DNA of 21,341 nucleotides from a virus (IMGVR_UViG_3300035703_000441:1-21341); one strand, 5' to 3'. Shown: positions 3,026 through 21,164, numbered from the stretch's first letter. Program-made: numbers and translations. Notes: generated by a model not told the origin, from the sequence alone.

Positions 3026-3044
3026 GAACGCAGGGCTTTGGAGC

Positions 3045-3053
3045 TAGGTTGCC
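3045..3053 (-). promoter_or_regulatory. Start-associated motif GGCAACCTA before gene 2603-3025
   Basis: Exact copy, 19 bases before the ATG at 3025. Its first G is the last base of the TAG stop of the hub-adhesin gene. No GGAG/GAGG sequence lies between motif and start. Whether it acts in transcription, translation or RNA processing cannot be told from sequence. Confidence 0.65.
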
Positions 3054-6640: not shown

Positions 6641-7393
6641 CTACTTCACCTCCGCAGCGTCAACGGTGATCGTGTAGCGGGTGCTCTTGGCGCCGCCGCT
6701 GATGATCACCTCGGCTTCTGCCGTTGGTGCGGAGATCGGGAACCAAGTGCCGGTGGTGGGCACGCTGGCCACGCTGGTTTCGTACCAGCTGCGCACTGCT
6801 GTCCAGCCGGTGCTGTCGGTTGTGCCTCTGATCCGACGCACGCGGGTGGCTGTCAGGGCGCCGTTAATCACATGGGTGCCGCTAGTGGTGAGCTGCAGCT
6901 GCGGGGTGTCTTGGTAGGTCTCCATCGGTGCCAGCAGCGTCAACGTGGCGGAGCCGAGGGTTACGGTGCCTAAATCAGGCTTCGCTATAGCCTCATCGCG
7001 TTGGCGGTCTTGCTCTTTCTGTTGCAGCAGGACCTCTAAGGATTGGGCCGCATCCACCAGTTCGCAGCTGGCTTGGATGTAGGGGCCAGCCTGATCACCG
7101 CTGGGAGCACTGCTGAACCAACAAGCCACACCGCTGACGCTGATGCCGTTGGCGCTGGCGGTCAGGCTGACGGTGGTGCCAACCGTGCCGCTGCTCACCG
7201 TGTCGGCATCGGTGAGGCGGGCGTCGCGCCAGGTGTTGTAGACGCTCAACAGCGATTGCCACTCGCTGGCACTCAGCAGGCCGCTGACGGTCCACTTGCG
7301 GGCGGTGAGGCCGTCGCGGGTGCTCGTCTCGTCGTAGCCGAAGGGCTGGGCGATCAGCTTGCTAGTGCTGAACGCGCCGATGGAAACGCTCAT
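6641..7393 (-). CDS. Distal tail / minor tail protein
   Basis: A 250-residue protein starting MSVSIGAFSTSKLIAQPFGYDE. It has TARKWTVSGLLSASEWQSLLSVYNTWRDAR and CWFSSAPSG, a pattern I associate with distal tail or minor tail proteins of cyanobacterial phages. It sits between tape measure and hub, exactly where Dit-type proteins lie. A charged helix (about residues 115-140, LEVLLQQKEQDRQRDEAI) splits it from a second beta domain of about 100 residues. The ATG at 7393 overlaps the tape-measure stop (ATGA) and has a strong GGAGGT site, so it is both coupled and independently initiated. The position-based function is likely but not proven. Confidence 0.75.
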   Translation of the reverse strand: MSVSIGAFSTSKLIAQPFGYDETSTRDGLTARKWTVSGLLSASEWQSLLSVYNTWRDARLTDADTVSSGTVGTTVSLTASANGISVSGVACWFSSAPSGDQAGPYIQASCELVDAAQSLEVLLQQKEQDRQRDEAIAKPDLGTVTLGSATLTLLAPMETYQDTPQLQLTTSGTHVINGALTATRVRRIRGTTDSTGWTAVRSWYETSVASVPTTGTWFPISAPTAEAEVIISGGAKSTRYTITVDAAEVK

Positions 7394-9635: not shown

Positions 9636-9644
9636 TAAGTTGCC
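9636..9644 (-). promoter_or_regulatory. Start-associated motif GGCAACTTA before the tape measure gene
   Basis: Exact copy of GGCAACYTA, 20 bases before the GTG at 9615. It is one half of a back-to-back pair in the 51-base divergent region; the other half is at 9654-9662 on the plus strand. No sigma-70 -10 hexamer is apparent in these 51 bases on either strand. Confidence 0.65.
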
Positions 9645-9653
9645 GCTGATCGC

Positions 9654-9662
9654 GGGAACCTA
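9654..9662 (+). promoter_or_regulatory. Start-associated motif variant GGGAACCTA before the plus-strand cassette
   Basis: Eight of nine positions match GGCAACCTA, and it is the only start-associated copy on the plus strand, in front of the only plus-strand genes. The gap to the ATG at 9667 is just 4 bases, the main spacing exception. It is separated from the minus-strand copy by 9 bases. Confidence 0.55.
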
Positions 9663-9666
9663 GGCC

Positions 9667-10062
9667 ATGACTAGCGATCTCGCTGCACTGGCCAACGCCA
9701 CTGCAATCTTCACGGTCCCAACCGTTGGCACAGTCACTGATCCCGTCACCGGCAACGTTGTGCCGGCCACGGAAACAGTCACGGTCAGCTTGTACCTGCG
9801 TCAAGGCAGCACCAGGGCCTTGGACTTTCCTGGCGTTGACACTGAAGTTGAGACCTACGAGGGCTATGCGGTCAGTCCGCAGGCACTGGATGCCCGCATT
9901 AAGCCCGGTGTGGTTGGCACGCTCAACTTCGCTGGTCAAGGCGCCATTGACTGCGAAGTGATCAACAGCCGCTACCCCTACGGCACCACGGGCCTGATCG
10001 GCAGCACCGTGCAGCAGGTGATCGGCGACAAGATCCGGCTGGCCCGCTACGTGCAAGGCTGA
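9667..10062 (+). CDS. Putative head closure / head-tail connector protein
   Basis: A 131-residue, beta-rich, soluble protein with TETVTVSLYLRQGS near its middle and DKIRLARYVQG at the end. Size and strand content fit the SPP1 gp16-like head closure proteins that plug the portal after packaging, and such genes normally sit directly before a gp10-like neck gene, as here. It reads on the plus strand, opposite to all its functional partners. The stop overlaps the next start as TGATG. The ATG has no Shine-Dalgarno but a motif copy 4 bases upstream. Function is inferred from size and context, not from a diagnostic motif. Confidence 0.6.
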   Translation: MTSDLAALANATAIFTVPTVGTVTDPVTGNVVPATETVTVSLYLRQGSTRALDFPGVDTEVETYEGYAVSPQALDARIKPGVVGTLNFAGQGAIDCEVINSRYPYGTTGLIGSTVQQVIGDKIRLARYVQG

Positions 10063-10496
10063 TGCCAGTTCAGGTCAAGGCCAACTTCAAGCTGACCGGC
10101 TGGAATGCCAATCAGCTCAAGCTGCGCGTGCCGCAGATCCTGACCACCTACGGCAAGGTCTTGGGTGATCAGCTCAAGGAAGAAATCAAGACGCCGCAGT
10201 TCAGGTGGCCTCGTGCCACCAAACGCCGCAATGGGCAGACCGTTACCAGTCCCCGAGACATCGTGGACCTTGGCGGTCTGCTGCGATCTCAGCGGCGTGA
10301 TCGCCCCAGTGCCACGCAGCTACGGTTTACGTGGAACACGCCCTATGCGGGTTTGATCCTGAATGGCTATGTCACAGGCATTAAAGGCACTGTGGTTGAT
10401 GGCCGGAACTGGATCAAACCAGCACTTGAAAAGCAACCGCTAGATCGCTTCTTTGCTGAGCAGTGGCGACGCCTAGACGGCATCGGCGGACTGTAG
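10062..10496 (+). CDS. HK97 gp10-like neck / tail completion protein
   Basis: A 144-residue basic protein. The features I associate with gp10-like phage proteins are an N-terminal helix (QILTTYGKVLGDQLKEEIK), a DIVDLGGLLRSQ element, WNTPYAGLILNGY with an aromatic loop, and a final RNWIKPALEK..LDRFFAEQW helix. These proteins act at the head-tail junction. Start overlaps the previous stop (TGATG), so the two plus-strand genes form a small coupled operon. It ends facing the tail tube gene, with a terminator hairpin in the gap. Confidence 0.72.
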   Translation: MPVQVKANFKLTGWNANQLKLRVPQILTTYGKVLGDQLKEEIKTPQFRWPRATKRRNGQTVTSPRDIVDLGGLLRSQRRDRPSATQLRFTWNTPYAGLILNGYVTGIKGTVVDGRNWIKPALEKQPLDRFFAEQWRRLDGIGGL

Positions 10497-10500
10497 ACAC

Positions 10501-10529
10501 AAAAAAGCGGCCATCTCCAGCTGGCCGCT
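10501..10529 (-). terminator. Rho-independent terminator after the tail tube gene
   Basis: An 8-bp perfect stem, AGCGGCCA with TGGCCGCT, and an 8-base loop, followed on the minus strand by TTTTTT (10506-10501). It lies 29 bases beyond the tail tube stop. On the plus strand the hairpin is not followed by a T run, so it should mainly stop leftward transcripts before they run antisense through the plus-strand cassette. Confidence 0.88.
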
Positions 10530-10542
10530 CTGCTGTCCACCC

Positions 10543-10558
10543 GACAACCTAAGTTGCT
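10543..10558. promoter_or_regulatory. Near-palindromic double copy of the start-associated motif, no gene attached
   Basis: The core CAACCTAAGTTG reads almost the same on both strands: GACAACCTA forward (10543-10551) and AGCAACTTA reverse (10558-10550). Each differs from the consensus at one position. It sits between the convergent ends of the neck gene and the tail tube gene, overlapping the last base of the tube stop codon. No start codon lies at the usual distance on either strand. Confidence 0.5.
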
Positions 10559-11037
10559 CAGGCGTTGGTCTCAGCAGACCAGGAATACGAGCCGTAGCCC
10601 GACAGGGTAAAGCTAACGGTGGCCACGTTGCCTGCAGCAATCGACTCCGAGAAGTCGGTCACGAAGGCCACGCCGGAGTGATATTCAGGGCTACCGGTGC
10701 TGCTCATCTCAGGCGATTCGCGATACCACTCAACAGTGGTGCCACCAGCGGCATTCAGGGCTGCGTTTTTCAGCACCGCATAACCAGCATCGTTCAGGTT
10801 CAGGTTCATCTCGCAGGGGATGGTGTAAGCCTGCGTGGTCACCAGCGAAGCGGTAAAGCCCAGCGTGCTGCCGTAGTCCTGCACTTCCTGCGTTTGGCTG
10901 GTGCCCTGGATGCCAGCGTTGGTCAGGGACAGCACCTCAGTCATGCCGGTGCTGGCAGTGGGGTTGGTGCTAGCGGTGGTGCCGGCCTTCACATAGAACC
11001 GATACCCCAGCGAGTTAAAAAAGGCACCGGTGGCCAT
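10558..11037 (-). CDS. Major tail tube protein
   Basis: A 159-residue beta-rich protein with the signature ending of tail tube proteins: GVAFVTDFSESIAAGNVATVSFTL followed by SGYGSYSW, and a central TIPCEMNLNLNDAGY segment. Tube proteins polymerise as stacked hexamers around the tape measure. It lies between the sigma-like gene and the terminator, and is the last gene of the right-hand minus-strand block. A GGCAACCTA copy lies 24 bases before the ATG; no Shine-Dalgarno is seen. High expression would be expected, which fits having its own motif and a strong terminator. No separate tail terminator gene was recognised nearby. Confidence 0.85.
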   Translation of the reverse strand: MATGAFFNSLGYRFYVKAGTTASTNPTASTGMTEVLSLTNAGIQGTSQTQEVQDYGSTLGFTASLVTTQAYTIPCEMNLNLNDAGYAVLKNAALNAAGGTTVEWYRESPEMSSTGSPEYHSGVAFVTDFSESIAAGNVATVSFTLSGYGSYSWSAETNA

Positions 11038-11061
11038 GACTTAAACCTGTGGCGTGTGCCT

Positions 11062-11070
11062 TAGGTTGCC
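11062..11070 (-). promoter_or_regulatory. Start-associated motif GGCAACCTA before the tail tube gene
   Basis: Exact copy continuing as AAGG, starting 1 base beyond the stop codon of the sigma-like gene and 24 bases before the ATG at 11037, slightly more than the usual 19-20. Confidence 0.62.
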
Positions 11071-11071
11071 C

Positions 11072-11650
11072 CTAACTAGCAGCAGCCTCTTCCTCAGCCT
11101 CAAGCACCTCCCACGGCGTCATGCGCGGGCACACGTGCAGATCAAAGCCCTTCACGTCGTGAGCCACGCCTGCGGTCGCTAAGAGAGCTTCCTTGAGGTC
11201 TTGCTTGCTGCAGCTCAGCTCCTTGCAGATTGCTGCTGGCTGCCAGCCCAACGCCATCAGCCGCCTGGCGTTATTGCCTAGCAGTCGCACCTTGTGGGTC
11301 GCCTTAATCGTCCAGTTGTGACCGCGCAGGAAGTGCAGCACCTCACCTTGAGCAAAGCTCCAGAAGATCGTGCTCAACTTCCCCTTCTCCGGGTTCCAGG
11401 CACGGCACGCCTTCAGAAAGGCGATGTCACAGCAGGAGAAGATGTCCTCCTTGGCCATGCAGTGGCTGTATTTCCGGCACAGCTTCCCGCCGAACATCTT
11501 GATCAGGCCGATGTTCTCGGCATACATGCGCCCAAACCGCCGCTGTTCCTCGCGGGTCAGTGGTTTAGCAAGGTGTCCTTCGCTGCGCTTTTTCTCCGGT
11601 GCAGCGGCCGGAGTGCTGAAGAAATCAAGCTGGCCTTCAGCAACGCGCAT
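11072..11650 (-). CDS. Phage sigma-factor-like protein (region 2 plus helix-turn-helix)
   Basis: 192 residues from ATG 11650. Residues about 44-118 follow sigma-70 region 2: ENIGLIKMFGGKLC, then EDIFSCCDIAFLKACRAWNPEKGK, then LSTIFWSFAQGEVLHFLR and NWTIK. This parallels the gl..A...fdp..G..FSTya...irGEi.hfLR pattern of group 3 sigma factors. Residues about 134-158 (GWQPAAICKELSCSKQDLKEAL) look like a helix-turn-helix that could stand for region 4. The predicted role is redirecting host RNA polymerase to phage late promoters. The frame opens farther up (11716), but that would overlap the adaptor gene by 61 bases; ATG 11650 lies 5 bases past its stop. A non-sigma DNA-binding protein is the alternative. 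Confidence 0.68.
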   Translation of the reverse strand: MRVAEGQLDFFSTPAAAPEKKRSEGHLAKPLTREEQRRFGRMYAENIGLIKMFGGKLCRKYSHCMAKEDIFSCCDIAFLKACRAWNPEKGKLSTIFWSFAQGEVLHFLRGHNWTIKATHKVRLLGNNARRLMALGWQPAAICKELSCSKQDLKEALLATAGVAHDVKGFDLHVCPRMTPWEVLEAEEEAAAS

Positions 11651-11655
11651 CTTCC

Positions 11656-12213
11656 CTAACTTCGGAGGACAGTGCGCGACCCGAAGGCTGACGCTGCGGT
11701 GCTGGTGCATAAGCATCCCAACACTTTAGTCAAGTGCGGTAGGACGTTTAATGCGTTCTTGCTATCAGCCTGTGGTGTTGTATTGAACTCCACGCTGATC
11801 ACATCAATCTGCGCACGCTTGAGGTTGGCATTCGGGATGCCGCTGATCAGTTCGCTACTGCCAGCGCCAGCGGTTGACAGAGCATTGCTATCACCGAGCA
11901 GGTATTCGGCCAGATCAAAGGTGGCCTGCTTGATCGGCTTGGGGATCTCGCTGCTGGTGAAGCTCCAGTCACCGCACTCCGCTTCCGTGCGAGGCCAGAG
12001 CAGCGCTTGCGTGCTGGCGGCTTTTTCACCGATGTAGCTCAGCTCATCGAGATAGCGCGTGGCCATGATCAGCGCACGACCTTTGTTGTCGGTGCTCGCT
12101 GAGGCCCAGTTGAGGGTGCCGAGGTACAGATCAGCCAGATCGTCCGCAGCCGCAACTGTCAGATAGCTGTTGGCGTTCGACGCACCAGCAGTAGCAACGA
12201 CAGTGACGGTCAT
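11656..12213 (-). CDS. Head-tail adaptor, DnaT-like family
   Basis: 185 residues with the pattern of the phage DnaT-like (PF20557-type) adaptor family: NSYLTVAAADDLADLYLG, W..AS.DNKGRALIMATRYLDEL, then QALLWPRTEAE and IPKPIKQATFDLAEYLL. In head-tail modules such proteins form the ring below the portal; the family name comes from similarity and does not imply DNA replication. It sits between the gp7/F-type head protein and the sigma-like gene. The ATG at 12213 is exactly 19 bases after a GGCAACCTA copy. The C-terminal 20 residues are low in recognisable features. Confidence 0.8.
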   Translation of the reverse strand: MTVTVVATAGASNANSYLTVAAADDLADLYLGTLNWASASTDNKGRALIMATRYLDELSYIGEKAASTQALLWPRTEAECGDWSFTSSEIPKPIKQATFDLAEYLLGDSNALSTAGAGSSELISGIPNANLKRAQIDVISVEFNTTPQADSKNALNVLPHLTKVLGCLCTSTAASAFGSRTVLRS

Positions 12214-12231
12214 AGCGGCACACCCTTGCCG

Positions 12232-13257
12232 CTAGGTTGCCCGTCTGGGCTTGGGTGACTGCCAGAGCTTGACGGCACGATCAAAGCTGATCTCACCGTC
12301 TACCAAGCGTTGACCAAGCTTCTTGCCAAAGATCGCCTGAGCAGTCTCGGGGTTGTCTTTGACCCACTGCTTGGCAGCCACCTTGAACGACAGCGCACCT
12401 TCAGCGCCATCACCATCAGCCAGGCGATTGGGCTGCACCGGGTTGCCCTGTGGATCGGTCATCGTCTCGTTGCGCCATTTCCAAGGCAGGACTACACATC
12501 TACACTGAAAATGCGGTGATACCTTCCGGTAAGTAGCTGGAAATCGCTTGCCATCCAGCTTCAAGCAGATTGGGCAAACGTCGGAATCCAGCACTGCAGT
12601 CCAGGCCAAGCCGTCCGGTCCCATCCAGTCAGGATCGGCTTCAAACTCATAGATCGCCTGCTGCGCGGCGTTGCCCACTTCCTGCACACCTGTGCGGATC
12701 AAGGCCTCCACGTTGTTCTCGGTGATGCGCACCACAGCGCTCTCGTAGGTGGCGAAGGTTTCACCGCCGATGTCCGAGAGGCCAAGGCGTGCAAAGCGCT
12801 CCACACGATCCGCGACAAGTGCCGGCAGGCTTTGCGTGAGCTGTGTGCTCAGCGTCTTGCCAGCCACCACCGCGTCATTAACGATGCGCTGCACCTGAGC
12901 CGTCGATGCGGACGCTGCACCTTCATTGATCAAATCACCGCCGGCCATGGTGACCATGCGGCGGGCAAAGCTCAGCTGCTGCTCTACAAACGGTCGCAGG
13001 GCGTCCTGCAGCGCAGCCAGTTGCGGCACACCGAAGCTCTCCTGCACGCTGCGGGCCACAGCCGCCACCACCGCATTGATGGTCTGCTCACGGCCTGGCC
13101 CAAAGCTCAGCACACCCGACTGACCGACGACGCGCTCTACAGCCGTCAGCGTCGTGCGCAGGTCTCGTAGTGCTTGCCTGATCAGGCGATCTTCCAGCTG
13201 TTTTTGCCGCAGCGCATTGCGAAGGAACTCCTCAACTTGCTGCGACAGATCAGCCAC
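12232..13257 (-). CDS. Head morphogenesis / minor capsid protein, SPP1 gp7 - Mu gpF type
   Basis: 341 residues. The C-terminal part has the family's zinc-type signature: WTAVLDSDVCPICLKLDGKRF with Cys228 and Cys231, followed by PHFQCRCVVLPW with His249, Cys252 and Cys254. The N-terminal two thirds are helical, as usual. Members bind the portal and act in prohead assembly and early DNA ejection. It starts with GTG at 13257 inside the end of the 45-residue gene (8-base overlap), with GAGGACAAGGGC as ribosome site. Its final codons GCA ACC TAG are themselves part of the next motif copy, so the protein ends Ala-Thr. Unusually, it follows the capsid gene instead of the portal. Confidence 0.9.
   Translation of the reverse strand: MADLSQQVEEFLRNALRQKQLEDRLIRQALRDLRTTLTAVERVVGQSGVLSFGPGREQTINAVVAAVARSVQESFGVPQLAALQDALRPFVEQQLSFARRMVTMAGGDLINEGAASASTAQVQRIVNDAVVAGKTLSTQLTQSLPALVADRVERFARLGLSDIGGETFATYESAVVRITENNVEALIRTGVQEVGNAAQQAIYEFEADPDWMGPDGLAWTAVLDSDVCPICLKLDGKRFPATYRKVSPHFQCRCVVLPWKWRNETMTDPQGNPVQPNRLADGDGAEGALSFKVAAKQWVKDNPETAQAIFGKKLGQRLVDGEISFDRAVKLWQSPKPRRAT
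12233..12241 (-). promoter_or_regulatory. Start-associated motif GGCAACCTA before the adaptor gene
   Basis: Exact copy, 19 bases before ATG 12213. It overlaps the last codons and TAG stop of the head morphogenesis gene, so the same bases serve as coding sequence and motif. Confidence 0.65.
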
Positions 13258-13387
13258 GCCCTTGTCCTCTTAGCTTTTTGCGCCCGTGGTTTGGCCGGCT
13301 GTGCTGGCCATACCCTTGTCGGGTCTTCTTGGGTTTGCCCTGAACAAAAAGGCGGGCAGTGGCACCCGCCTTAGCTTTGACGGCCAT
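13250..13387 (-). CDS. Small very basic peptide ending RGQGRG
   Basis: 45 residues, MAVKAKAGATARLFVQGK then PKKTRQGYGQHSRPNHG and a final RKKLRGQGRG. About a third of residues are Lys, Arg or His and almost none are acidic, so it should bind nucleic acid or an acidic partner. I recall similar small peptides near capsid genes of cyanophages, with the KKTRQG and RGQGR ends kept; that is memory, not a search. The start overlaps the preceding stop as TGATG and its end overlaps the head morphogenesis start by 8 bases, placing it in a tightly coupled head gene chain. AAGGTC upstream is a fair ribosome site. Confidence 0.72.
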   Translation of the reverse strand: MAVKAKAGATARLFVQGKPKKTRQGYGQHSRPNHGRKKLRGQGRG

Positions 13388-13644
13388 CAGACCTTGTAAG
13401 CAACGACCTTGCCAGAGGTGAGCGTCACCGAGGTGAACAGCCCATCAATGGCACCGCCTGCTGGGATGGGTACAGCAGAGAAGGTGTTGCCACTGGCGTT
13501 TTGAACCGTGGCGGTGTTGATCACGGATGCCTCAAGGGCATAGAGGCGAAAGAAGCGCCCGGTGTGGGCACTGGTGTCAGCGATCAACTCAAAGCCAGCA
13601 CTGCCAGGAGTGCCAGCGGTTTCAGTTGCGGGAAAGACTGACAT
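13387..13644 (-). CDS. Small head-associated protein, possible decoration protein
   Basis: 85 residues, beta-rich, starting MSVFPATETAGTPGS and ending AIDGLFTSVTLTSGKVVAYKV. Repeated short strands with Gly/Ser/Thr turns and no charged clusters suit a small capsid-surface or fibre-base protein. The strong GAGGAGGAAGG site and position two genes after the capsid gene suggest abundant synthesis, as expected for a decoration protein. The family pattern (FFRLYALE..., ...ITL.SG.V.AY) looks familiar from phage genomes but I cannot name it. Start overlaps the 51-residue gene's stop (TGATG). Confidence 0.78.
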   Translation of the reverse strand: MSVFPATETAGTPGSAGFELIADTSAHTGRFFRLYALEASVINTATVQNASGNTFSAVPIPAGGAIDGLFTSVTLTSGKVVAYKV

Positions 13645-13799
13645 CAGCCTTCCTCCTCAACCTTCTTGCGCCCGCGCTTGGGGGCTTCTTTCTGCTCAGG
13701 CATGGAGCAGACTTCCGGCTCTGTAGAAAGAGAGGCCACTGCCGAAGCAGCAGCCTCTTCCTCTTCACGACGAGCCAGGTTGAACCCGGTCAGTCCCAT
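13644..13799 (-). CDS. Small protein directly after the capsid gene, MGLTGFN type
   Basis: 51 residues starting MGLTGFNLARREEEEAAAS and ending APKRGRKKVEEEG: an acidic first half with a basic patch near the end. A conserved G..GFN..RR start is typical of short, poorly understood phage proteins just after the major capsid gene. ATG at 13799 is 11 bases beyond the capsid stop, preceded by a TGAGGTTG ribosome site. An AGCAACTTC resembling the start-associated motif lies 17 bases before the ATG, inside the capsid's last codons. The stop overlaps the next start. Confidence 0.7.
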   Translation of the reverse strand: MGLTGFNLARREEEEAAASAVASLSTEPEVCSMPEQKEAPKRGRKKVEEEG

Positions 13800-13810
13800 G
13801 AAGATCAACC

Positions 13811-14863
13811 TCAGTCGAAGTTGCTGGTGACGGTGCCGCGCACGATGCCAATGTTCTTGGTCTCGTACACCTTGGTCCAGTTGGTGATGGTGGCCAGGGT
13901 TGCTTGGGTGGGGTTAGCACCGCCGGCGGTCTGGTACTGAGCACCAACGGGGTGGAACACGTTGTGCCAGGACACGGCCATGTAGTCGGCCAGCGCGAGG
14001 ATGTCGCGGTCCACTTCGGTCTTCAGACCCTGCTGCTCGCCGGAGGCAACAGCGCCGGGGGTGAAGAAATAAGTGGCGTACTTCTTGCTGGAGCTAGAAC
14101 CGCTGGTCTGCACATCATCAGAGACGATCACGCGCATACCCATGTAGAAGGGCACGCTGCCGTCAGCGGTGTAAGCGCCAGCCACAGAACCACCAAACAC
14201 GTCGGGGGTTGCAGCGTTAGAAGCAGCGGCGGTAGCGCGAGCTTCAGAGGCGGTCACGTAGTCAATGGCACGACGCTCAACGAGGTCGTAGTAGACAGCC
14301 GAGTGCATACAGATAGCGCTCAGCTTGTCGCCTTGATCACCCAGCAGGGCGCGGGCCTTGGCGACGTGACGAGGGGTGAGGGGGGTCTCACCAGAACCGC
14401 CGGCATCGAAGGTCAGGTCGATAAAGGCAGCGCCAGTGTTGGCAGAGCCGACAGCACCGAACACACCAGCGAGGCTGGCCAGCAGATCCTTCTGCTGTTG
14501 GTGAGCGATGTAGGCAGCGACCTTGTTACCGATGGCGGCCATCGGGTCAGCTCCGGCGGCCAATTTCGCTAATTCGCGAACTCCCCACGCACGGCCGCGA
14601 TGCAGCACAACACCGCGCTGCTTGTCGGCGGTGATGGCACCAGGGGTCAGGCTGGCGTTATCGGCCAGCACTTCAGCGTCGCCGCTAAGGTTGGCATCGA
14701 AGAACGGCACATTCACGTAGTCGCCGCCATCGGCCACAGCGTTGAGAGCCTCAAGAGGCTGCACAACACCAGAAGCGATAAACGCATTCCGAAGAGTGGT
14801 GGCCTCTTCAAGATACGGCGTGAAGACTTCTGGAATTACAATGTTCGACCGAACGGTCGTCAT
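13811..14863 (-). CDS. Major capsid protein
   Basis: 350 residues with the pattern of a siphovirus coat family (the Gp13-like group, PF20036 as I remember it): IVIPEVFTPYLEEATTLRNAF near the N-terminus, then NVPFFDANLSGDAEVLADN, LHRGRAWGVRELAKLAAGADPM and a VAAYIAHQQQKDLLASLAGVFG helix, the core of the HK97 fold. It follows the scaffold gene directly, the usual pairing. The ATG at 14863 has an excellent AAGGAG site. No protease gene or N-terminal delta domain is visible, consistent with a separate scaffold. Together with its 95-base leader, the gene appears set up for high expression. Confidence 0.93.
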   Translation of the reverse strand: MTTVRSNIVIPEVFTPYLEEATTLRNAFIASGVVQPLEALNAVADGGDYVNVPFFDANLSGDAEVLADNASLTPGAITADKQRGVVLHRGRAWGVRELAKLAAGADPMAAIGNKVAAYIAHQQQKDLLASLAGVFGAVGSANTGAAFIDLTFDAGGSGETPLTPRHVAKARALLGDQGDKLSAICMHSAVYYDLVERRAIDYVTASEARATAAASNAATPDVFGGSVAGAYTADGSVPFYMGMRVIVSDDVQTSGSSSSKKYATYFFTPGAVASGEQQGLKTEVDRDILALADYMAVSWHNVFHPVGAQYQTAGGANPTQATLATITNWTKVYETKNIGIVRGTVTSNFD

Positions 14864-14958
14864 GGTCTTAACTCCTTAGAGGAAGGTTTTGTGTTGGCGG
14901 CCACAGGCCCATGGGTCGGCACAGCCTTCCCTCTTGCTTGTAAGTATGCCAAACCGAA
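14864..14958 (-). other. 95-base leader between scaffold and capsid genes
   Basis: This is the longest gap within the minus-strand operon. Read leftwards it contains GGCATACTTACAAG, which could be a disrupted motif copy, a small GGGCC-TGT-GGCC hairpin and, just before the capsid ATG, CCTCTAAGGAGTTAAGACC with a strong Shine-Dalgarno. No clear sigma-70 promoter and no T-run terminator are present. Probably a capsid mRNA leader; promoter activity is possible but unsupported. Confidence 0.35.
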
Positions 14959-15642
14959 TTACTTACCGGCTGCAGCTTTCAAGCGTGCGTAGAGTTCGGG
15001 ATCAGTTTTGTAGATCCGTGCTTGTTCGGTGAGGTTGTAGTGCTCACGCGAGAAGGGGTTTTTGCTACCGGCGGGTAGCTCAGCGCTGCTGCGACCAACG
15101 GGTGCACCGGTGCCGGCGGGCTTGGGTGCTTTGAGGCGATATTGCGGCAGGCTGGTGCGTGCCCAGTCGCTGATCGGTGTGCGCTGGTAGCCATCGACAA
15201 CGACGACACTGCCGTCTGCTTCACGCTCGATCTGATCGGGCTTAAGGCGCAGGCGGATCACCTCATCGGGATCGTGCACGGTGTCAGCGAGAGCAGCGAC
15301 GGCTGGGCCGATCACTTTGAGTTCGCGGTTTTCGGCTTCCAACTCAGCGACCCGCTGCTGCAGTTGCGATTCACGGTCGCGGTACTGCTGTTCGTAGGTC
15401 TTGAGCGCTTCGTCGTACTTGCCTTTGGATTCCAGCTGCTGCTGTTCCACCTTGCGCTTGAAGTCCATGAGCTCCTGGACATCAACGCCATCGGGTACTT
15501 CAGGCAGCTTCTTGGCCAGCTTTTTCTTCTCGTCCAACAGCTCCGCATTTTTGCGGCGCATGGCATCGAGTTCTGCTTGCAGGGCCTGCAGATCAGAGGA
15601 AGGTGCAGACTGCTCCACAGGAGCGTTGTCGTTGTCGGGCAT
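14959..15642 (-). CDS. Capsid scaffolding protein
   Basis: 227 residues, strongly charged. A long coiled coil spans about residues 18-110 (LQALQAELDAMRRKNAELLDEKKKLAKKL, then QQLESKGKYDEALKTYEQQYRDRES). A basic, Pro-rich C-terminal part ends NPFSREHYNLTEQARIYKTDPELYARLKAAAGK. A Q...E.GKYDEALK element and a terminal NP.(S).E..NLTEQ...Y..DP..A..L segment are standard in siphovirus scaffolds; the C-terminal helices contact the coat protein. Lies immediately before the capsid gene. ATG 15642 is 28 bases after a GGCAACCTA copy, with no Shine-Dalgarno. Confidence 0.9.
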   Translation of the reverse strand: MPDNDNAPVEQSAPSSDLQALQAELDAMRRKNAELLDEKKKLAKKLPEVPDGVDVQELMDFKRKVEQQQLESKGKYDEALKTYEQQYRDRESQLQQRVAELEAENRELKVIGPAVAALADTVHDPDEVIRLRLKPDQIEREADGSVVVVDGYQRTPISDWARTSLPQYRLKAPKPAGTGAPVGRSSAELPAGSKNPFSREHYNLTEQARIYKTDPELYARLKAAAGK

Positions 15643-15670
15643 GTAGAGCCACAGGCTCAGAGTTGCTGAT

Positions 15671-15679
15671 TAGGTTGCC
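15671..15679 (-). promoter_or_regulatory. Start-associated motif GGCAACCTA before the scaffold gene
   Basis: Exact copy in the 59-base gap between the small membrane protein gene and the scaffold gene, 28 bases before ATG 15642. This is the longest spacing among the copies. Confidence 0.6.
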
Positions 15680-15701
15680 GCCCTAGAAGTAGTGCGGGTC
15701 T

Positions 15702-15887
15702 CTAGTCAGGCCGGGATTCAGGAGCGCTGCGGACGCAAACCGCAGATAGGCGGGAAGAAATCACCATTACTCCGCCGGACCTAGAGCATTGTTTCGCCAT
15801 ATTTGTTTCCTGTACAAGCTGATAACCAATGAAACCTAAGAGGCAAGCCCATATGGCGAGTGACAGGATTCGGTCTGCTTTAGTCAT
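15702..15887 (-). CDS. Small single-span membrane protein, unknown
   Basis: 61 residues with an N-terminal transmembrane segment at about residues 7-25 (ILSLAIWACLLGFIGYQLV) and a short basic soluble tail containing two Cys. MTKADR before the helix and mostly basic residues after it leave the topology open. Found inside the head operon between two soluble structural genes. A membrane protein here is unusual; exclusion, lysis timing or a transferred accessory gene are all possible, and none is shown. ACAAGG lies 7 bases before the ATG as a ribosome site. Confidence 0.6.
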   Translation of the reverse strand: MTKADRILSLAIWACLLGFIGYQLVQETNMAKQCSRSGGVMVISSRLSAVCVRSAPESRPD

Positions 15888-15912
15888 TAATCAACCTTGT
15901 AGTGGTGCAGAT

Positions 15913-16095
15913 CTATTGAGAAAAGCCTGTAAACACAAAGCGGCGCGGATCGCTTGGATCCTTTGCGTAGGTTGCGAAGTTGCCTTTGCCGTCAGTCGCC
16001 GGAACCTGAATGCGTGGTGCGCTTGCGTACCGCTCGGGTAGGGCAGCCCCGTCAGCTGGGCCGCCTATGAGGCGAGGAGGTGATAATTCAGTCAT
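15913..16095 (-). CDS. Small conserved phage protein, RLIGGPADG type
   Basis: 60 residues starting MTELSPPRLIGGPADGAALPE, then a central YASAPRIQVPATDGKG and an aromatic end RRFVFTGFSQ. The (R)L(I/V)GGP.DG start is a frequent signature of short phage proteins of unknown role. GAGGACACAGGCTG before ATG 16095 gives a plausible ribosome site. CCAACCTGAGG just above resembles the start-associated motif but matches poorly and is only 13 bases from the ATG. Confidence 0.65.
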   Translation of the reverse strand: MTELSPPRLIGGPADGAALPERYASAPRIQVPATDGKGNFATYAKDPSDPRRFVFTGFSQ

Positions 16096-16121
16096 CAGCC
16101 TGTGTCCTCAGGTTGGTCATA

Positions 16122-16148
16122 GGGCAGGGTGTTAGCGCACCGCTGCCC
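16122..16148. other. Strong imperfect hairpin between two small genes
   Basis: On the minus strand GGGCAG pairs with CTGCCC and, after one bulged C, GGTG pairs with CACC around a CGCTAA loop. That gives 10 GC-rich pairs in a 60-base gap. No T run follows on either strand, so it is not a classical terminator. A transcript-stabilising or processing element is possible. Confidence 0.5.
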
Positions 16149-16155
16149 TTCAACA

Positions 16156-16287
16156 TTAGCTCAACTGCTGACTAACTACCGTCTTGACGGCGCCATCAGC
16201 TTTGATGACGATCATCTTGTACAGGTGCTTCTGGCCGGGCTTTGCCTTCAGGAGGCGGCCTACAGCGGTGACTTCAGGTCTGGTCAT
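16156..16287 (-). CDS. Small basic protein, 43 residues, unknown
   Basis: ATG 16287 overlaps the stop of the 266-residue gene (ATGA) and has GGAG six bases upstream, so translation is well supported. The product is MTRPEVTAVGRLLKAKPGQK continuing HLYKMIVIKADGAVKTVV and ending SQQLS. It reads like a single beta hairpin or sheet with a basic first half. No family recognised. Coupling suggests a function with the basic protein upstream. It is followed by a strong hairpin. Confidence 0.6.
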   Translation of the reverse strand: MTRPEVTAVGRLLKAKPGQKHLYKMIVIKADGAVKTVVSQQLS

Positions 16288-17084
16288 TTGCGGCTCCGAG
16301 ATTTAATGCCTTTGCCAGCCCTAGTCCCGTGTATGGGATCAGCGCCGGCAGTCAGCTTTTGATACTTGTCCAGCAGACCGCGCTTGCTCAATGCAGAGTT
16401 CACGCGGCCACCACGCCTGTTGCTTCGCTGAATCAGGCGCATCTTCTGATTTAAATCGCCCCCGCCATCAACAGTCGCCTTCATGCTCTTGGCCAACTTG
16501 CCCATTACGCGGTCGGCCTGCTCCAAGACCTGTTGATCGCTCTTGGCCTTGCGCTTTGGTGCAGCTGGGCTGCTCCTGCCCTTAGCAGCTTGGGCCATGC
16601 CAATACCGCTACGGCCGGGCGCCATCTGGGGGAAGCTGCCCTCTGCTGCTGGATTCTTTATCGTGCTGTAACGACCAAACGGTGCGCGCTGCTTGCCTTG
16701 GGTTGAAGCCACCTGCTGCCCACGGGCGCGGGTCATGTTGGATTGCACCCGACGCGTCCGACTGGCATCTCTCGCTGCACCTTCAGCAGCTTGTCTTGCG
16801 CGGATGTCGCTGATCGGGGTTAAACCTTTTGCTCTTGATTCATCAGCTGTAGGCCTTCTACGCCGCGACGACTGCTTAGGCGCCGGCACCGTGGCATTTG
16901 GCTTGATTGCACCAGGTTTTGAATCTTTGGACTTGCCAACAGTCCCCGAAGGTTTCCGGCCGGCGATGGCCTTGGTCTGCGTCGCACGCTTGTTACCTGA
17001 TGCAGTAGCAAGCCTGCCCCCACGCGCAGTAGCACCCGCAGATGAAAACCTGCCACGGTTATCCCTGCTATAGCGGCGTGCCAT
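16284..17084 (-). CDS. Very basic 266-residue protein, possible internal head / DNA-associated protein
   Basis: It begins MARRYSRDNRGRFSSAG, a start seen in many phage proteins from head gene clusters. Residues 1 to about 190 are low-complexity, rich in Arg, Lys, Ala, Gly, Ser and Pro, with KPSGTVGKSKDSKPG and SSRRRRPTADESR; this resembles the tail of a linker histone. A helical, more ordered end follows (about 180-266: QQVLEQADRVMGKLAKSMKA, then LLDKYQKLTAGAD). The charge predicts DNA binding inside the capsid or during packaging. It lies between portal and scaffold genes and starts 19 bases after a motif variant. The function is inferred from composition and position only. Confidence 0.78.
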   Translation of the reverse strand: MARRYSRDNRGRFSSAGATARGGRLATASGNKRATQTKAIAGRKPSGTVGKSKDSKPGAIKPNATVPAPKQSSRRRRPTADESRAKGLTPISDIRARQAAEGAARDASRTRRVQSNMTRARGQQVASTQGKQRAPFGRYSTIKNPAAEGSFPQMAPGRSGIGMAQAAKGRSSPAAPKRKAKSDQQVLEQADRVMGKLAKSMKATVDGGGDLNQKMRLIQRSNRRGGRVNSALSKRGLLDKYQKLTAGADPIHGTRAGKGIKSRSRK

Positions 17085-17103
17085 TGAACCCAGCCTTTAG
17101 AGC

Positions 17104-17112
17104 TAGGTTTCC
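17104..17112 (-). promoter_or_regulatory. Start-associated motif variant GGAAACCTA before the basic protein gene
   Basis: One mismatch to GGCAACCTA, in the 36-base gap after the portal stop, exactly 19 bases before ATG 17084. The following bases GCTC are the same as after the copy at 3045-3053. Confidence 0.6.
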
Positions 17113-17120
17113 AATCCAGA

Positions 17121-18569
17121 TCAAGGCAGCTGCTGCAGGTTTGCATCAAGCTGCGCAGCCTGTGCATCGAGCCGTGATTGCTGCTGCGCGGCAGTGGCTT
17201 CAATCTCCTGATCGACGTTGAAGTCGTCGTAGAGCCACTCACCATCGGCCAGCTGGATCAGCAGCGTCTCTTGGGTGATGTCACCGTTGAGGCGCAGTTT
17301 GATCAGCTCAGCCACATGGCCAGGCTCCAGGGTGCGGGCCACAAAGTCGTTGTTGACCATGCTGCTGCCGCTGTTGGGCAGCCCGAGGAACGCGCTGTGG
17401 AAACGCAGGCAGTTGTCGATGAGATCTTGTAGGCCGAGGGCCACGGTCATCAGGGCAGCGTCGCCTTGGCTGCGGTCGATGGCCTTGGCTTCAGCGGCTT
17501 GGTTGGTCATGTTCTGACCAAGGATGGCGGCGAGGCCGAGCTGATTGATCTGCCGCTCAATGCGGTCCAGCTGCTGGAACTGGAAGCCGTAGCTGGTGCC
17601 TTGCGGTTCGACGAACTCAGCCCGTGAATCCACGGGCAAAGCCATGGCCGAGTCAGGGCCAGCAGTGATCTCGTCTAGTTCGGCTGGGACGCCGTAGAGA
17701 TGGAAGCGTGGCACTGCTGCAATGTGCAGCTGATTGCTGAGGTCAGAGCCGACGCGATAGCTCTGCAGGTTGAGGTGCGCGACCTCTTCCAGCGGCGGGG
17801 TGGATTCAAGGATACCAAGGCGGTTGGCATAGGCCACCGCAAAGGGGATCTCGTCGAGGGTGGTCTGGCCTTCGTTGACCAGCTCCCAATCGCGGCCTTT
17901 GCTGCCCTGCTGGCGGTAGAGACGGAAGCGCCCGATCTCAAGGACGCGCACCTGAGAAACAACCTCTTCGCCAAACTCCCCGTAAGGGACAACGACGCGC
18001 TCGTGTAGGCGCAGCTGCGTCAGCTTCTGCGTGCCCTGCACCACATCCGTGCGCCAGCCAAGGATGTCCCGTGGGCTGTAGCTGACCCAGTAGGGGCGGT
18101 TGAAGTCGGTGACCGGTGTGTCGTCACCCTCATCCCCACGGGGGAAGTCCACGAGCACACCCACGTGGCCGTAGCGGATGCAGGTCTTGGCCAGGCTGTG
18201 CAGGTAGACGTTGAGATCGTTGCCCTGTAGGTCAACGTCCATCATGTGCTCTTGCACAAGATCGGGCACGTTGTCGAGGCGCACAGGCTTGCGGCTGATC
18301 ATGCCGGCCAGCATTTGCTCGATGCGCTGGTAGTACGGCGGGCAGACGCTGCGCTTCAGACGTGCGAGGTAGCTCGCGTCTGATTCTTTGGGCTCTTGCG
18401 GGAGGTAGCGACGGCCTGCGGCTTGCAGCTGAAGGGTGCCGCCGATCAGCTCTTCGATCAGTTCCCAGCGGGGCTGCATCCGCTGCCAGGCGATGCCGGG
18501 ATCGTGAACACCAAGATCCTGAATCGAGAGGACTGGCTTGAGTTCAGTGGCAGCAAGATTAAAGTGCAC
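17121..18569 (-). CDS. Portal protein (DUF4055-like)
   Basis: 482 residues from GTG 18569. The DUF4055 portal pattern is visible: QRIEQMLAGMISRKPVRLDNVPD, MMDVDLQGNDLNVYLHSLAKTCIRYGHVGVLVDFPRG, RPYWVSYSPRDILGWR and, later, HLNLQSYRVGSDLSNQLHIAAVPRFHLYG. The final coiled segment (EIEATAAQQQSRLDAQAAQLDANLQQLP) is Gln/Ala-rich. Portals form the 12-subunit ring through which terminase pumps DNA. The frame also allows GTG 18587, but that codon overlaps the motif and has no ribosome site. GTG 18569 gives the 19-base motif spacing shared by other genes; I prefer it, with the caveat that this argument uses the motif. Confidence 0.9.
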   Translation of the reverse strand: MHFNLAATELKPVLSIQDLGVHDPGIAWQRMQPRWELIEELIGGTLQLQAAGRRYLPQEPKESDASYLARLKRSVCPPYYQRIEQMLAGMISRKPVRLDNVPDLVQEHMMDVDLQGNDLNVYLHSLAKTCIRYGHVGVLVDFPRGDEGDDTPVTDFNRPYWVSYSPRDILGWRTDVVQGTQKLTQLRLHERVVVPYGEFGEEVVSQVRVLEIGRFRLYRQQGSKGRDWELVNEGQTTLDEIPFAVAYANRLGILESTPPLEEVAHLNLQSYRVGSDLSNQLHIAAVPRFHLYGVPAELDEITAGPDSAMALPVDSRAEFVEPQGTSYGFQFQQLDRIERQINQLGLAAILGQNMTNQAAEAKAIDRSQGDAALMTVALGLQDLIDNCLRFHSAFLGLPNSGSSMVNNDFVARTLEPGHVAELIKLRLNGDITQETLLIQLADGEWLYDDFNVDQEIEATAAQQQSRLDAQAAQLDANLQQLP

Positions 18570-18588
18570 AGCCTTTCGCTCGATCACT

Positions 18589-18597
18589 TAAGTTGCC
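18589..18597 (-). promoter_or_regulatory. Start-associated motif GGCAACTTA before the portal gene
   Basis: Exact copy of GGCAACYTA, 24 bases past the terminase stop and 19 bases before GTG 18569. The next bases AAG match the copy in front of the tape measure gene. Confidence 0.62.
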
Positions 18598-18620
18598 GGT
18601 CGGCAAGCTAAAGATTGGGC

Positions 18621-19970
18621 TCAATAGAGCCTGAGGTTGCGCACTGCTTTGCCGCTGTGGCCACGGCCCACTTCAAAGCAACGGTGAACGATGTAGCCAA
18701 GCGCATCGTTCATGTGGTCGTAGCCGGCGTCCTTGTCTGGATCGCCTTTGTCGTTGTAGCTCTGCAGCTCTAGGCACTCAATCAGTTTCTTGCAGCGCTT
18801 GTCGATGAACAGGCGGCGTTCACCCATGCCGTTCTCCAGCAAGGCTTGCACCGCTGCTACGCGGTCTCTGACTGGTGGATTGGCTGAAGGTGCCATGTTG
18901 CTGATGTCGTAGCTCTCAAGGATGGCGATGTCGCTGCGGGAGCTATTGGTGCTGCGGTTGGCACCGGAGGCATCAGGGTAGCCAAGGATGCGTGCTTTGC
19001 CATAGCGGCGGCGCACTTCTTGGGCGAGAGCGTCGGTGTCATGGGCACCGCTGATCTCATCAAAGACGTGCAGCTCACGTCCACGACGCACGGCGAGCAC
19101 ACCGCTCATGTTGCCAATATTGAAGTCGATGCCGAGCAGGATCGGCTCTTCTGGATCCCAGTCCACGGTTTGGACGTTTAGCTCACGGTTGAAGCGGTCG
19201 TAAACCTGGCCGGTGGTGAGGCTGACGAACTCACCATTGAGGTAGGCCTGCAGCAGGTTCGGGTCGTAGTTGGCCTGAAGGCGCTCGATGAAGTCCGGCG
19301 GCAGATAGGGATTGTCTGCCGTGCGCATCTTGATCAGCTTGCGATCAGCGCGTTCCTTGGTCTCTTCTGAGGCAAAGGTTTGCCACATCCAGCGGAAGCC
19401 TTCAGGTGTGGAGGCTGCACCGAACTGCCGAACGTTGCCGGCACGAAGGCGGCCAAGGATCTTCGGGAAGGCTTTGTTGGCCGTAGACGGTGGAACGGTA
19501 TCAATCTCATCGCAGAGGCACCATGCAGCATTGATGCCGATGCAGCGCTGCCAGTTTTCAAAGCTGCGGCACAAGATCTTGGTATCACCGCCCGGCAGGT
19601 GCAGCACGTATTCCGGGAGCGGCGAAGCGCGGAACGTGTAGGGGATGTCGTAGGCCTCTAGGAAGTCGTCGAAGTCGTTCTGCCAGATGTCGCGGATCAG
19701 TGGGCCGGTCGGTTCCATGACGATGCCGATGAAGCCCTGATTGCTGGCAGCGAGGTGAACAGCTTTGCTGGCTAGCGCTCGGGTTTTGCCAGCGCCGTAA
19801 CCGGCAGAGATGCCAAGGATCTCGGTGGTCTGGTCTTCGACGAAGGCGAGCTGGCCAGGGTGCAGGTCTTGGCGGATGCGTGCCAAGAGGTCTGTGGTGT
19901 CCTGCTGCGACGGTGAGGCGAGGAAGCTGAGCAGGGGGGTTGGTTCAGTGATGCCGGTGAGCAGGCTCAC
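18621..19970 (-). CDS. terL: Terminase large subunit
   Basis: 449 residues with both domains. ATPase: Walker A GYGAGKT (residues 57-63) and Walker B WCLCDEID (150-157, Asp154-Glu155), with a GAASTPEGF coupling motif near 184-192. Nuclease (RNase H fold): Asp282 in LLGIDFNIGN, Asp333 in GYPDASG and Asp418/Asp422 in YDHMNDALGY, the expected acidic triad. It cuts and pumps the DNA concatemer into the prohead through the portal. GTG start at 19970 overlaps the small subunit stop (GTGA), a standard coupled pair. Complete, with no missing key residues. Confidence 0.97.
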   Translation of the reverse strand: MSLLTGITEPTPLLSFLASPSQQDTTDLLARIRQDLHPGQLAFVEDQTTEILGISAGYGAGKTRALASKAVHLAASNQGFIGIVMEPTGPLIRDIWQNDFDDFLEAYDIPYTFRASPLPEYVLHLPGGDTKILCRSFENWQRCIGINAAWCLCDEIDTVPPSTANKAFPKILGRLRAGNVRQFGAASTPEGFRWMWQTFASEETKERADRKLIKMRTADNPYLPPDFIERLQANYDPNLLQAYLNGEFVSLTTGQVYDRFNRELNVQTVDWDPEEPILLGIDFNIGNMSGVLAVRRGRELHVFDEISGAHDTDALAQEVRRRYGKARILGYPDASGANRSTNSSRSDIAILESYDISNMAPSANPPVRDRVAAVQALLENGMGERRLFIDKRCKKLIECLELQSYNDKGDPDKDAGYDHMNDALGYIVHRCFEVGRGHSGKAVRNLRLY

Positions 19971-20290
19971 GACATCTCAAAGCGCAGGAGTTTGGCTTGG
20001 TCTTCTAAGGCTTTGAGTGCGATGCCGAGCTGATTGGATTCAGAAGCGCGGCGTTCGTATTCAACAAGGCGTGCAACTGCAGCAGCTAGCCACTGGGGGC
20101 GTTCAAGTTCGGCGTCCAGTTGCATCAACTGGCGTGCGCGTTGGATATAGGTCTCGGCTGTACGTTCGGCCACACCCCACTCATCCGCCGCGTATCGCAG
20201 GATTTGGGTGCGGCTGTATGCACGAAGTAGCAGGTCGTATACGGCGTTGACCCGCTCATCAATTTCTACGTTAGTGCTCTTCTTTGCCAT
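19967..20290 (-). CDS. Terminase small subunit (putative)
   Basis: 107 residues, all helical. An N-terminal helix-turn-helix fits residues about 10-52 (VNAVYDLLLRAYSRTQILRYAADEWGVAERTAETYIQRARQLM): the region after TQILRYAADEWGV acts as recognition helix. A second helical region probably drives oligomerisation. It recognises the packaging site and loads the large subunit. Assignment rests on the helix-turn-helix, size and the 4-base overlap with terL. No motif copy or Shine-Dalgarno precedes ATG 20290; CCGG pairs in the 9-base gap region are the only structure. Confidence 0.82.
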   Translation of the reverse strand: MAKKSTNVEIDERVNAVYDLLLRAYSRTQILRYAADEWGVAERTAETYIQRARQLMQLDAELERPQWLAAAVARLVEYERRASESNQLGIALKALEDQAKLLRFEMS

Positions 20291-20299
20291 GGCCGGAGT

Positions 20300-20614
20300 T
20301 TAACCGGAGGAGGGCATGAGGAGGGTGCCGTCTGAGGCGAGGATATTAAGCTTGTCTTCAGCGTCTTGAAAGGAGCGTGCCCAGATGGTGGCTAGGCGTG
20401 CGACGGGTTCTGGTGCGACGAAGTAGAGAAAGAGGTAGTGACCTTTGAGGGAACGATGGCCGTTGGTGGGGAGGTAGCCACCGGTGAGGCGGAAGGTGGC
20501 GAGGAGATTGCGTGCGATGTGTTCAGCGAGTTCTGGGTCAACGTCGTGTTGAAGGACCAGGCCGAAGGGTTCGCCTGTTGCGGGATCTTCAGCAACGATG
20601 GACCAGGGTTCCAT
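20300..20614 (-). CDS. Unknown 104-residue protein upstream of terminase
   Basis: Starts MEPWSIVAEDPATGEPFG and continues DPELAEHIARNLLATFRLTGG, then HYLFLYFVAPEPVARLATIW. Mixed alpha/beta, soluble, mildly acidic. The open frame extends farther upstream to 20770, but that would overlap RusA. ATG 20614 gives a 20-base spacing to an exact motif copy, and the upstream residues look like antisense noise. No family recognised. Its place between a resolvase and terminase suggests a packaging or DNA-processing accessory, which is only a guess. Confidence 0.68.
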   Translation of the reverse strand: MEPWSIVAEDPATGEPFGLVLQHDVDPELAEHIARNLLATFRLTGGYLPTNGHRSLKGHYLFLYFVAPEPVARLATIWARSFQDAEDKLNILASDGTLLMPSSG

Positions 20615-20633
20615 GGCACAGGGTGCCGCTGCT

Positions 20634-21164
20634 TTAGGTTGCCAAGGGGATGATGGTGATGAGAGCACCGGGTTTTTCTTCTGCGGTGCAGTAGCGCTTG
20701 TGGGCAGCCAGCTGAACCACTTGAGAATCGTCGTGAAGAAGTGAGCCAGTGAGGGCATCAAGCACGGCACGGGAAAGTTTGTCGATGTCGCCCTTTAGGC
20801 GAGAGGTTAGGTGGGCTGGTGCTTTGGGGGATAGGCCAGATTTGTTGTAGTGGCCTTTGGGGCGTAGGAAGCGAAAGGTTATTGAGATCGAGACCGGGTG
20901 ATTGATTAGGGGGTTGTTGGTTGCTAGGGCTGCGTCGGTGACGAGAGAGCGCCAAGGACGTAGGCGTTGATTGGTTTCGCGCATGATGCCGTGACCGACG
21001 TGGCGTTTAGAGCCTTGGGTAGCGGCTTCCATGCCGATAACGTTGAAGGTGATGGCACTAGGCGCGGATGAGGATGGTGGTGGTGTTGATGCGTTGCTGT
21101 TCTCGTTCAAGCCACCAGCGTTCAGCGGTGAGAGCACTGGCAGGATCTGCGGAGAAGGTGCCAT
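20634..21164 (-). CDS. rusA: RusA-type Holliday junction resolvase (start uncertain)
   Basis: The RusA core is clear: ITFNVIG near the N-terminus, TQGSKRHVGHGIM and LRPWRSLV, then GDIDKLSRAVLDALTGSLLHDDSQVVQLAAHKRY with the catalytic-type Asp126, Asp128, Lys129 and Asp145/146 (numbered from 21164). RusA dimers cut four-way junctions; in phages they trim recombined or branched DNA before packaging, fitting its place beside terminase. The start is unresolved. ATG 21164 adds about 36 Pro/Ser-rich residues that overlap a better gene (21058-21234), while ATG 21032 would cut off the first strand. A rare start near 21053 is possible. The final codons GCA ACC TAA are part of a motif copy. Confidence 0.85.
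   Translation of the reverse strand: MAPSPQILPVLSPLNAGGLNENSNASTPPPSSSAPSAITFNVIGMEAATQGSKRHVGHGIMRETNQRLRPWRSLVTDAALATNNPLINHPVSISITFRFLRPKGHYNKSGLSPKAPAHLTSRLKGDIDKLSRAVLDALTGSLLHDDSQVVQLAAHKRYCTAEEKPGALITIIPLAT
20635..20643 (-). promoter_or_regulatory. Start-associated motif GGCAACCTA before the 104-residue gene
   Basis: Exact copy, 20 bases before ATG 20614. Its CTA overlaps the TAA stop of rusA, and its GCAACC encodes the last two residues, Ala-Thr, exactly as at 12233-12241. Confidence 0.65.

Follow-up and report, generated by a model that had tools for sequence, protein, structure and literature searches.

Which protein reads a short sequence that recurs ahead of the late genes of a phage, and by what means, is the question raised by IMGVR_UViG_3300035703_000441, a 21,341-base virus fragment from IMG/VR that was analysed over its full length (hereafter, the window). 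Its minus strand encodes a siphovirus late module, with genes for terminase, portal, scaffold, coat, head morphogenesis, adaptor, tail tube, and tape measure. A megablast search with the window returned no DNA-level match among cultured phages, and the host is inferred to be probably a picocyanobacterium because the large terminase is 66–73% identical to those of the marine Synechococcus/Prochlorococcus siphoviruses S-H1, KBS-S-2A, and MED4-184/P-HS2. An earlier interpretation made from the DNA alone (the sequence-only reading) had proposed that the repeated motif and a sigma-like factor encoded among the late genes form a phage-specific late regulon.

The motif GGNAACYTAR was found at nine sites in the window (Table 1; sites are numbered by their first G), while 300 dinucleotide-preserving shuffles averaged 0.28 sites and never gave more than 3, which confirms that the motif is real. 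All nine are in gene orientation and lie 13–37 nt ahead of a gene start, as was claimed for the late genes. Eight fall within intervals of 10–44 nt before starts, which make up 2% of both strands, and so does the ninth, that of the portal gene, given its conserved start GTG 18569. The spacing of 28–29 bases given by the sequence-only reading stands as the mode (six sites) and fails as a rule (13, 33, and 37 at the remaining three), and the site at 3053 falls outside the range in which it had located the motif. The coat gene has no motif of its own and is presumably read from motif 15679. The motif of the plus-strand operon sits back to back with that of the tape measure gene, each facing its own gene. 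By eye, a hairpin (AGCGGCCA-loop-TGGCCGCT, then T6 on the minus strand, window 10501–10530) was seen that probably terminates transcription between the tail-tube gene and the plus-strand operon, which converge there. ARAGORN also called a tRNA-Arg(tcg) at 6747–6841 (+), antisense within a tail gene and probably spurious.

Table 1 Coordinates of the motif sites, genes, and protein regions (window positions unless another contig is named)
Feature	Coordinates	Strand	Remarks
Motif 20643, GGCAACCTAA	20634..20643	-	29 nt before ATG 20614 (unknown gene, then small and large terminase)
Motif 18597, GGCAACTTAA	18588..18597	-	28 nt before portal GTG 18569
Motif 17112, GGAAACCTAG	17103..17112	-	28 nt before ATG 17084
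Motif 15679, GGCAACCTAA	15670..15679	-	37 nt before ATG 15642 (scaffold-like, then coat)
Motif 12241, GGCAACCTAG	12232..12241	-	28 nt before ATG 12213 (head-tail adaptor, then sigma-like gene)
Motif 11070, GGCAACCTAA	11061..11070	-	33 nt before ATG 11037 (tail tube)
Divergent motif 9654, GGGAACCTAG	9654..9663	+	13 nt before ATG 9667 (predicted leaderless)
Motif 9644, GGCAACTTAA	9635..9644	-	29 nt before GTG 9615 (tape measure)
Motif 3053, GGCAACCTAG	3044..3053	-	28 nt before ATG 3025
Terminase unit, below motif 20643	18621..20614	-	Pfam Terminase_6N/6C
Unknown gene, first in terminase unit	20300-20614	-	
Small terminase-like	19967-20290	-	
Large terminase	18621-19970	-	Pfam Terminase_6N/6C
Portal-like protein (DUF4055)	17121..18569	-	
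Major coat protein	13811..14863	-	Relatives annotated coat protein
Head-tail adaptor Ad1	11656..12213	-	phrog_477
Sigma-like factor, 192 aa from ATG 11650	11072..11650	-	Regions 2-3, no region 4
QLDFF, residues 7-11, putative beta-sliding-clamp-binding motif	11618..11632	-	Consensus match
Sigma region 2 homology (residues 33-114)	11309..11554	-	Structure alignment to sigma70
Sigma region 3-like part (residues 115-165)	11156..11308	-	Profile and structure match
Tail tube / major tail protein	10558..11037	-	PHROG
Divergent two-gene operon, function unknown	9667..10496 (9667-10062, 10062-10496)	+	
Tail tape measure protein	7390..9615	-	PHROG
RpoD-like sigma (relatives)	L049:17283-18197 = G001 97283-98197	-	Equivalents in G002, G004, G007, G008, G010, G019

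An element profile was computed over 87 non-redundant sites, 74 of which have a leader and were used for the count of A offsets. The information is confined to 10 bp and a short A-rich stretch downstream and is flat upstream, with no -35 signal ahead of the motif in any part of the 87-site profile. An A is found 14 nt after the first G in 66% of the leader sites (p 6e-15) and 15 nt after it in 62% (p 1e-12), i.e., 4–6 nt beyond the motif end, which falls inside the 4–10 nt that had been predicted for the distance to the transcript start, in the absence of transcript data. The enrichment holds within every spacing class, and the motif fixes the position of the peak more sharply than the start codon does. 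The spacing is exactly 13 nt (once 14) at the divergent gene, the adaptor gene of loci L028 and L084–L086, and several genes of contig G016; such sites are predicted, again without transcript data, to yield leaderless transcripts with the A of ATG at the start site. The proposal of a -10-like element recognised alone, and not of a -35 element, gains from both the missing -35 information and the recurrence of this leaderless spacing. Taken as a promoter of the -10-only late type, GGNAA(C/G)YTAR is well supported by sequence, with no wet data, and its register suits a sigma-70-family -10 element with the conserved A near -11.

The likeness of the GG core to the ECF -35 element (GGAAC), pointed out at the time, did not survive: a -35 role is excluded because the start site would fall inside the several genes with 13-nt spacing, and no second element exists. 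A better match, missed then, is the -10 element of the group-3 factor SigB, GGGWAW (PMC11156646), whose GGGWA the motif's GG-N-A-A resembles more closely than it does the ECF -35.

The candidate specificity factor among the late genes was confirmed by a PHROG sigma family match (E 7.6e-12) and by its fold (regions 2–3). Its frame is open to 11716, and the start at 11650 is probably fixed by relatives. Pfam Sigma70_r2 was matched below threshold (E 0.007), and the NCBIfam SigB/F/G models were matched by 29/29 diverse members far below the curated cut-offs, with FliA/WhiG also below cut-off, as expected when half of the model is absent. Profile matches in the PDB were SigB, SigF, and FliA. An AF2 model from 29 sequences, modest in confidence (pLDDT 74), replaced a weak one from 13 sequences (pLDDT 66); its residues from about 32 to 114 align to residues 369–447 of E. 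coli sigma70 (rmsd 1.9), and longer alignments, to about residue 165, were obtained with sigma28 and SigB. No Pfam match to region 4 was found in the protein and only around 27 residues are left after the sigma-3 part; without region 4 no -35 reading would be possible, in agreement with a -10-only promoter. Judged from these profiles and the model, the best reading is a group-3-type sigma reduced to regions 2–3 by the loss of region 4: regions 2 and 3 are common to it and SigF/SigB/FliA (29/29 homologs match SigB/F/G-type models), from which it differs in having neither region 4 nor a -35 element in its promoters. The bacterial genome collection contained a single homolog, on a 5.8-kb contig of a Planctomycetia MAG (L107, RFRL01000240.1), which is probably a mis-binned virus or else may hint at a different host.

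Of the 29 IMG/VR loci in which this sigma-like gene also occurs, most show the motif at the same genes, with differing sequence just upstream of it. In four relatives of 41–43 kb (G002, G007, G008, and G010), the early region (about 11–13 kb, with a serine recombinase and a single-strand annealing protein) contains no site, and the rest contains 8–13. Contigs G002, G008, G014, and G016 were taken as complete based on direct terminal repeats. The sequence GGCAAGCTAG is common or dominant at late genes in G015, G016, G017, L092, L094, and L097, whose sigma-like proteins are about 43–49% identical, and likewise in L081 (71% identical). Coat-protein relatives (59–97% identity, with the region required covered) were then compared by presence or absence of the sigma-like gene, using the reversed pattern as control. 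The 17 loci with the gene (295 kb) contain 108 matches to GGNAA(C/G)YTAR vs. 21 to the control, and every one of them has at least 3 motifs, whereas the 20 loci without it (303 kb) contain 16 vs. 48 and none has more than 2. These counts are phylogenetically non-independent, the phages that supplied the sites and sigmas being related to one another, and the phages lacking the gene are mostly lower in G+C; the reversed control handles composition only. The hypothesis that the factor and the motif belong together in a late regulon is strengthened by this contrast (17/17 against 20 below the control) and by the restriction of sites to the late module. All the computational tests are consistent with the sigma-like factor reading a phage late regulon via a -10-only element, which is thus supported as an inference from sequence comparison, direct recognition being biochemically unproven.

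Two contigs have peculiarities of their own. Two facing copies of the motif form a near-perfect palindrome at L008:2882–2905 (GGAAACCTAGGAAACTAGGTTTCC); neither copy has a called ORF start behind it. G001 (106,734 bases; overall G+C lower, 0.52) has all its motif sites in 71.5–97 kb and none in its left part, where an AAA/DnaB-like replication protein is encoded; this part could belong to a separate element or to a phage-plasmid fused with this phage, or the contig could be a chimera.

The sequence-only reading, right to pair the factor with the motif, missed what is new here, a putative clamp-binding consensus at the factor's N-terminus (MRVAEGQLDFFSTP). QLxLF is the bacterial beta-sliding-clamp-binding consensus, with QLSLF as its full form (PMC4549789). 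A peptide of this type is present in 25/29 diverse homologs and within the first 20 residues of 1/349 other ORFs, and the N-terminus is otherwise a variable linker in which only Q-L-x-[LFM]-[FL] is kept (QLDFF in the window; QLSLF, QLDLF, QLCLF, QMDLF, QLLLF, QLALF, and QLTMF in others). That this N-terminus binds the replicative beta clamp is an inference, without binding data. No beta-clamp domain (PF02767) was found in 12 contigs carrying the sigma-like gene, so the host's clamp would have to serve; S-H1, a relative without the gene, encodes a beta clamp. No second protein with a conserved clamp peptide, as an analogue of gp33, stood out, and no dedicated gp33 search was made. A full-text literature search of incomplete coverage turned up no clamp-binding motif in any phage sigma other than that of T4.

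The explanation that we consider likely, with reasonable but far from complete confidence, is that a pared-down late sigma, anchored to the replication clamp, reads -10-only promoters, gp55-like in action and sequence-unrelated. It builds on what the sequence supports, namely the motif, its position and gene association, the domain content of the factor, and the conserved peptide. Host RNA polymerase with the 192-aa protein would read GGNAA(C/G)YTAR by direct recognition, which is inferred, with GG at about -15/-14, the invariant A at about -11, and an inferred transcript start at an A some 13–15 nt after the first G. Having lost region 4, the protein would contact no -35 element; its flexible N-terminal QLxLF peptide would instead bind the host replicative beta sliding clamp. 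After the onset of replication, polymerase held to DNA-loaded clamps would scan for -10-only elements and open them, so that the tether would make up for the lost -35 contact and link late transcription to the replication of the phage, much as gp55 and gp45 do in T4; this coupling is likewise inferred. Since the unit headed by motif 12241 contains the sigma gene after that of the adaptor, the factor would amplify its own synthesis; this feedback is inferred, as is the origin of the first molecules, from read-through or from an RpoD-like sigma where one is present.

The peptide is the part of this scheme most open to dispute, as the sigma-like factor might read the motif as an ordinary late sigma without clamp coupling, with QLxLF incidental or binding something else. 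We regard this as rather improbable, though it deserves to be kept in mind. Peptides of only five residues can arise by chance, P-SS2-type homologs have none, and no recognisable one is present in 4/29 distant homologs (L091, L094, L096, and L097), which keep the promoter motif and in whose lineages the peptide may be dispensable or replaced. Against this, the peptide is conserved in the other 25 while the remaining N-terminal sequence varies, the loss of region 4 calls for another anchor, and Q[GP]SLF is kept at the opposite end in S-CRES1-type homologs: S-CRES1 and all five full-length gp20-type relatives end in it (C-terminus; L204:12308-13042, L205–L209).

The sigma content of these phages also turned out to be larger than the single factor, itself upheld, that had been noted earlier, as a second, RpoD-like sigma had been overlooked. 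The closest relatives encode it in full (regions 1.2, 2, 3, and 4) at the early/late boundary, and it could in principle read the motif while the sigma-like protein does something else. This is unlikely, and we give it very little weight: G012, G013, G014 (complete, with terminal repeat), G015, and G017 lack the RpoD-like sigma and keep the motif and the sigma-like gene, so the former is not needed for the motif; KBS-S-2A has it and shows no enrichment of the motif; and its region 2.4, canonical by eye, predicts a TATAAT-like element. A motif site follows the RpoD-like sigma gene, ahead of a small ORF, at a spacing of about 31.

Equally slight is the case for an operator to which a repressor binds during lysogeny, as at the one-directional stoperators known from Cluster A mycobacteriophages. 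The sites are short, asymmetric, and oriented with transcription, and relatives carry a serine recombinase, but the early/integration regions of complete contigs are free of sites, the motif is associated with the sigma gene, and the A peak lies at start-site distance. The idea that the motif acts in RNA, as a start-associated signal for translation or processing, is the least credible, since, despite a position just upstream of starts like that of the start-associated sequences (SAS) of Cluster K mycobacteriophages (PMC3203893), the spacing varies over 13–44 nt, the A peak is sharper against the motif than against the start codon, and 13-nt sites leave almost no leader.

Among known systems, the SAS of Cluster K mycobacteriophages sit immediately upstream of starts and, with ESAS and stoperators, share with the window motif the form of short asymmetric repeats in gene orientation; in the portions of the sources available, nothing links them with a phage sigma gene, unlike the window motif (PMC3203893, PMC9283540), and no initiator-like A is reported for SAS there (PMC3203893). 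Closer are the cyanophages P-SS2, reported to carry one sigma of group 2 and one of group 3, with the group-3 factor described as "likely" for a particular regulon (PMC2784084), and S-CRES1, with the same pair. P-SS2 ORF003 (PMC2784084) and S-CRES1 gp20 are homologous to the window factor (hhalign prob 97.5) and adjoin the terminase, each phage having a second sigma factor besides. They differ in the clamp peptide, C-terminal Q[GP]SLF in the S-CRES1 type and none in the P-SS2 type, and GGNAA(C/G)YTAR is not enriched in the parts of the two genomes examined. By eye, other repeated strings were seen in P-SS2 (L203) upstream of 2777/31797 and 13316/34537 (TTCGAAGGTAGAYTGA and, roughly, AGGAACACTGGCGGCGAT), which might be its own late promoters. 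The regulon of the P-SS2 group-3 sigma was previously unknown (PMC2784084); a concrete regulon and promoter can now be put forward for relatives of that protein.

T4 offers the nearest likeness in action, its late transcription depending on gp55, gp33, and the gp45 sliding clamp (PMC2988020, PMC7892883). No relation to gp55 was detectable (hhalign probability 0.1), so the window factor would work like gp55 without belonging to its family; the absence of gp55 among the fold-search matches listed is not evidence either way. Both are small sigmas with region 2, no -35 contact, late promoters of the -10 type only, and a clamp peptide on a linker at one terminus, which is the C-terminus in gp55 (PMC2988020) and, putatively, the N-terminus in the window family. 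The window promoter is GGNAACYTAR and not the T4 late element, the phage is a siphovirus with its sigma gene within the late module, and neither a phage clamp nor gp33 was found. With a confidence only somewhat above even, we propose that clamp-coupled late transcription arose independently in a lineage of siphoviruses that is not related to T4, with a truncated group-3 sigma bearing a beta-clamp peptide, -10-only promoters (some leaderless), and the host clamp as activator, next to an S-CRES1-type sister lineage with the peptide at the opposite end. If true, this would be a second case, unrelated in sequence and relying on the host clamp; the coupling of late genes to replication would thereby be shown to be a convergent solution, and a small, testable set of sigma, promoter, and clamp would be at hand.
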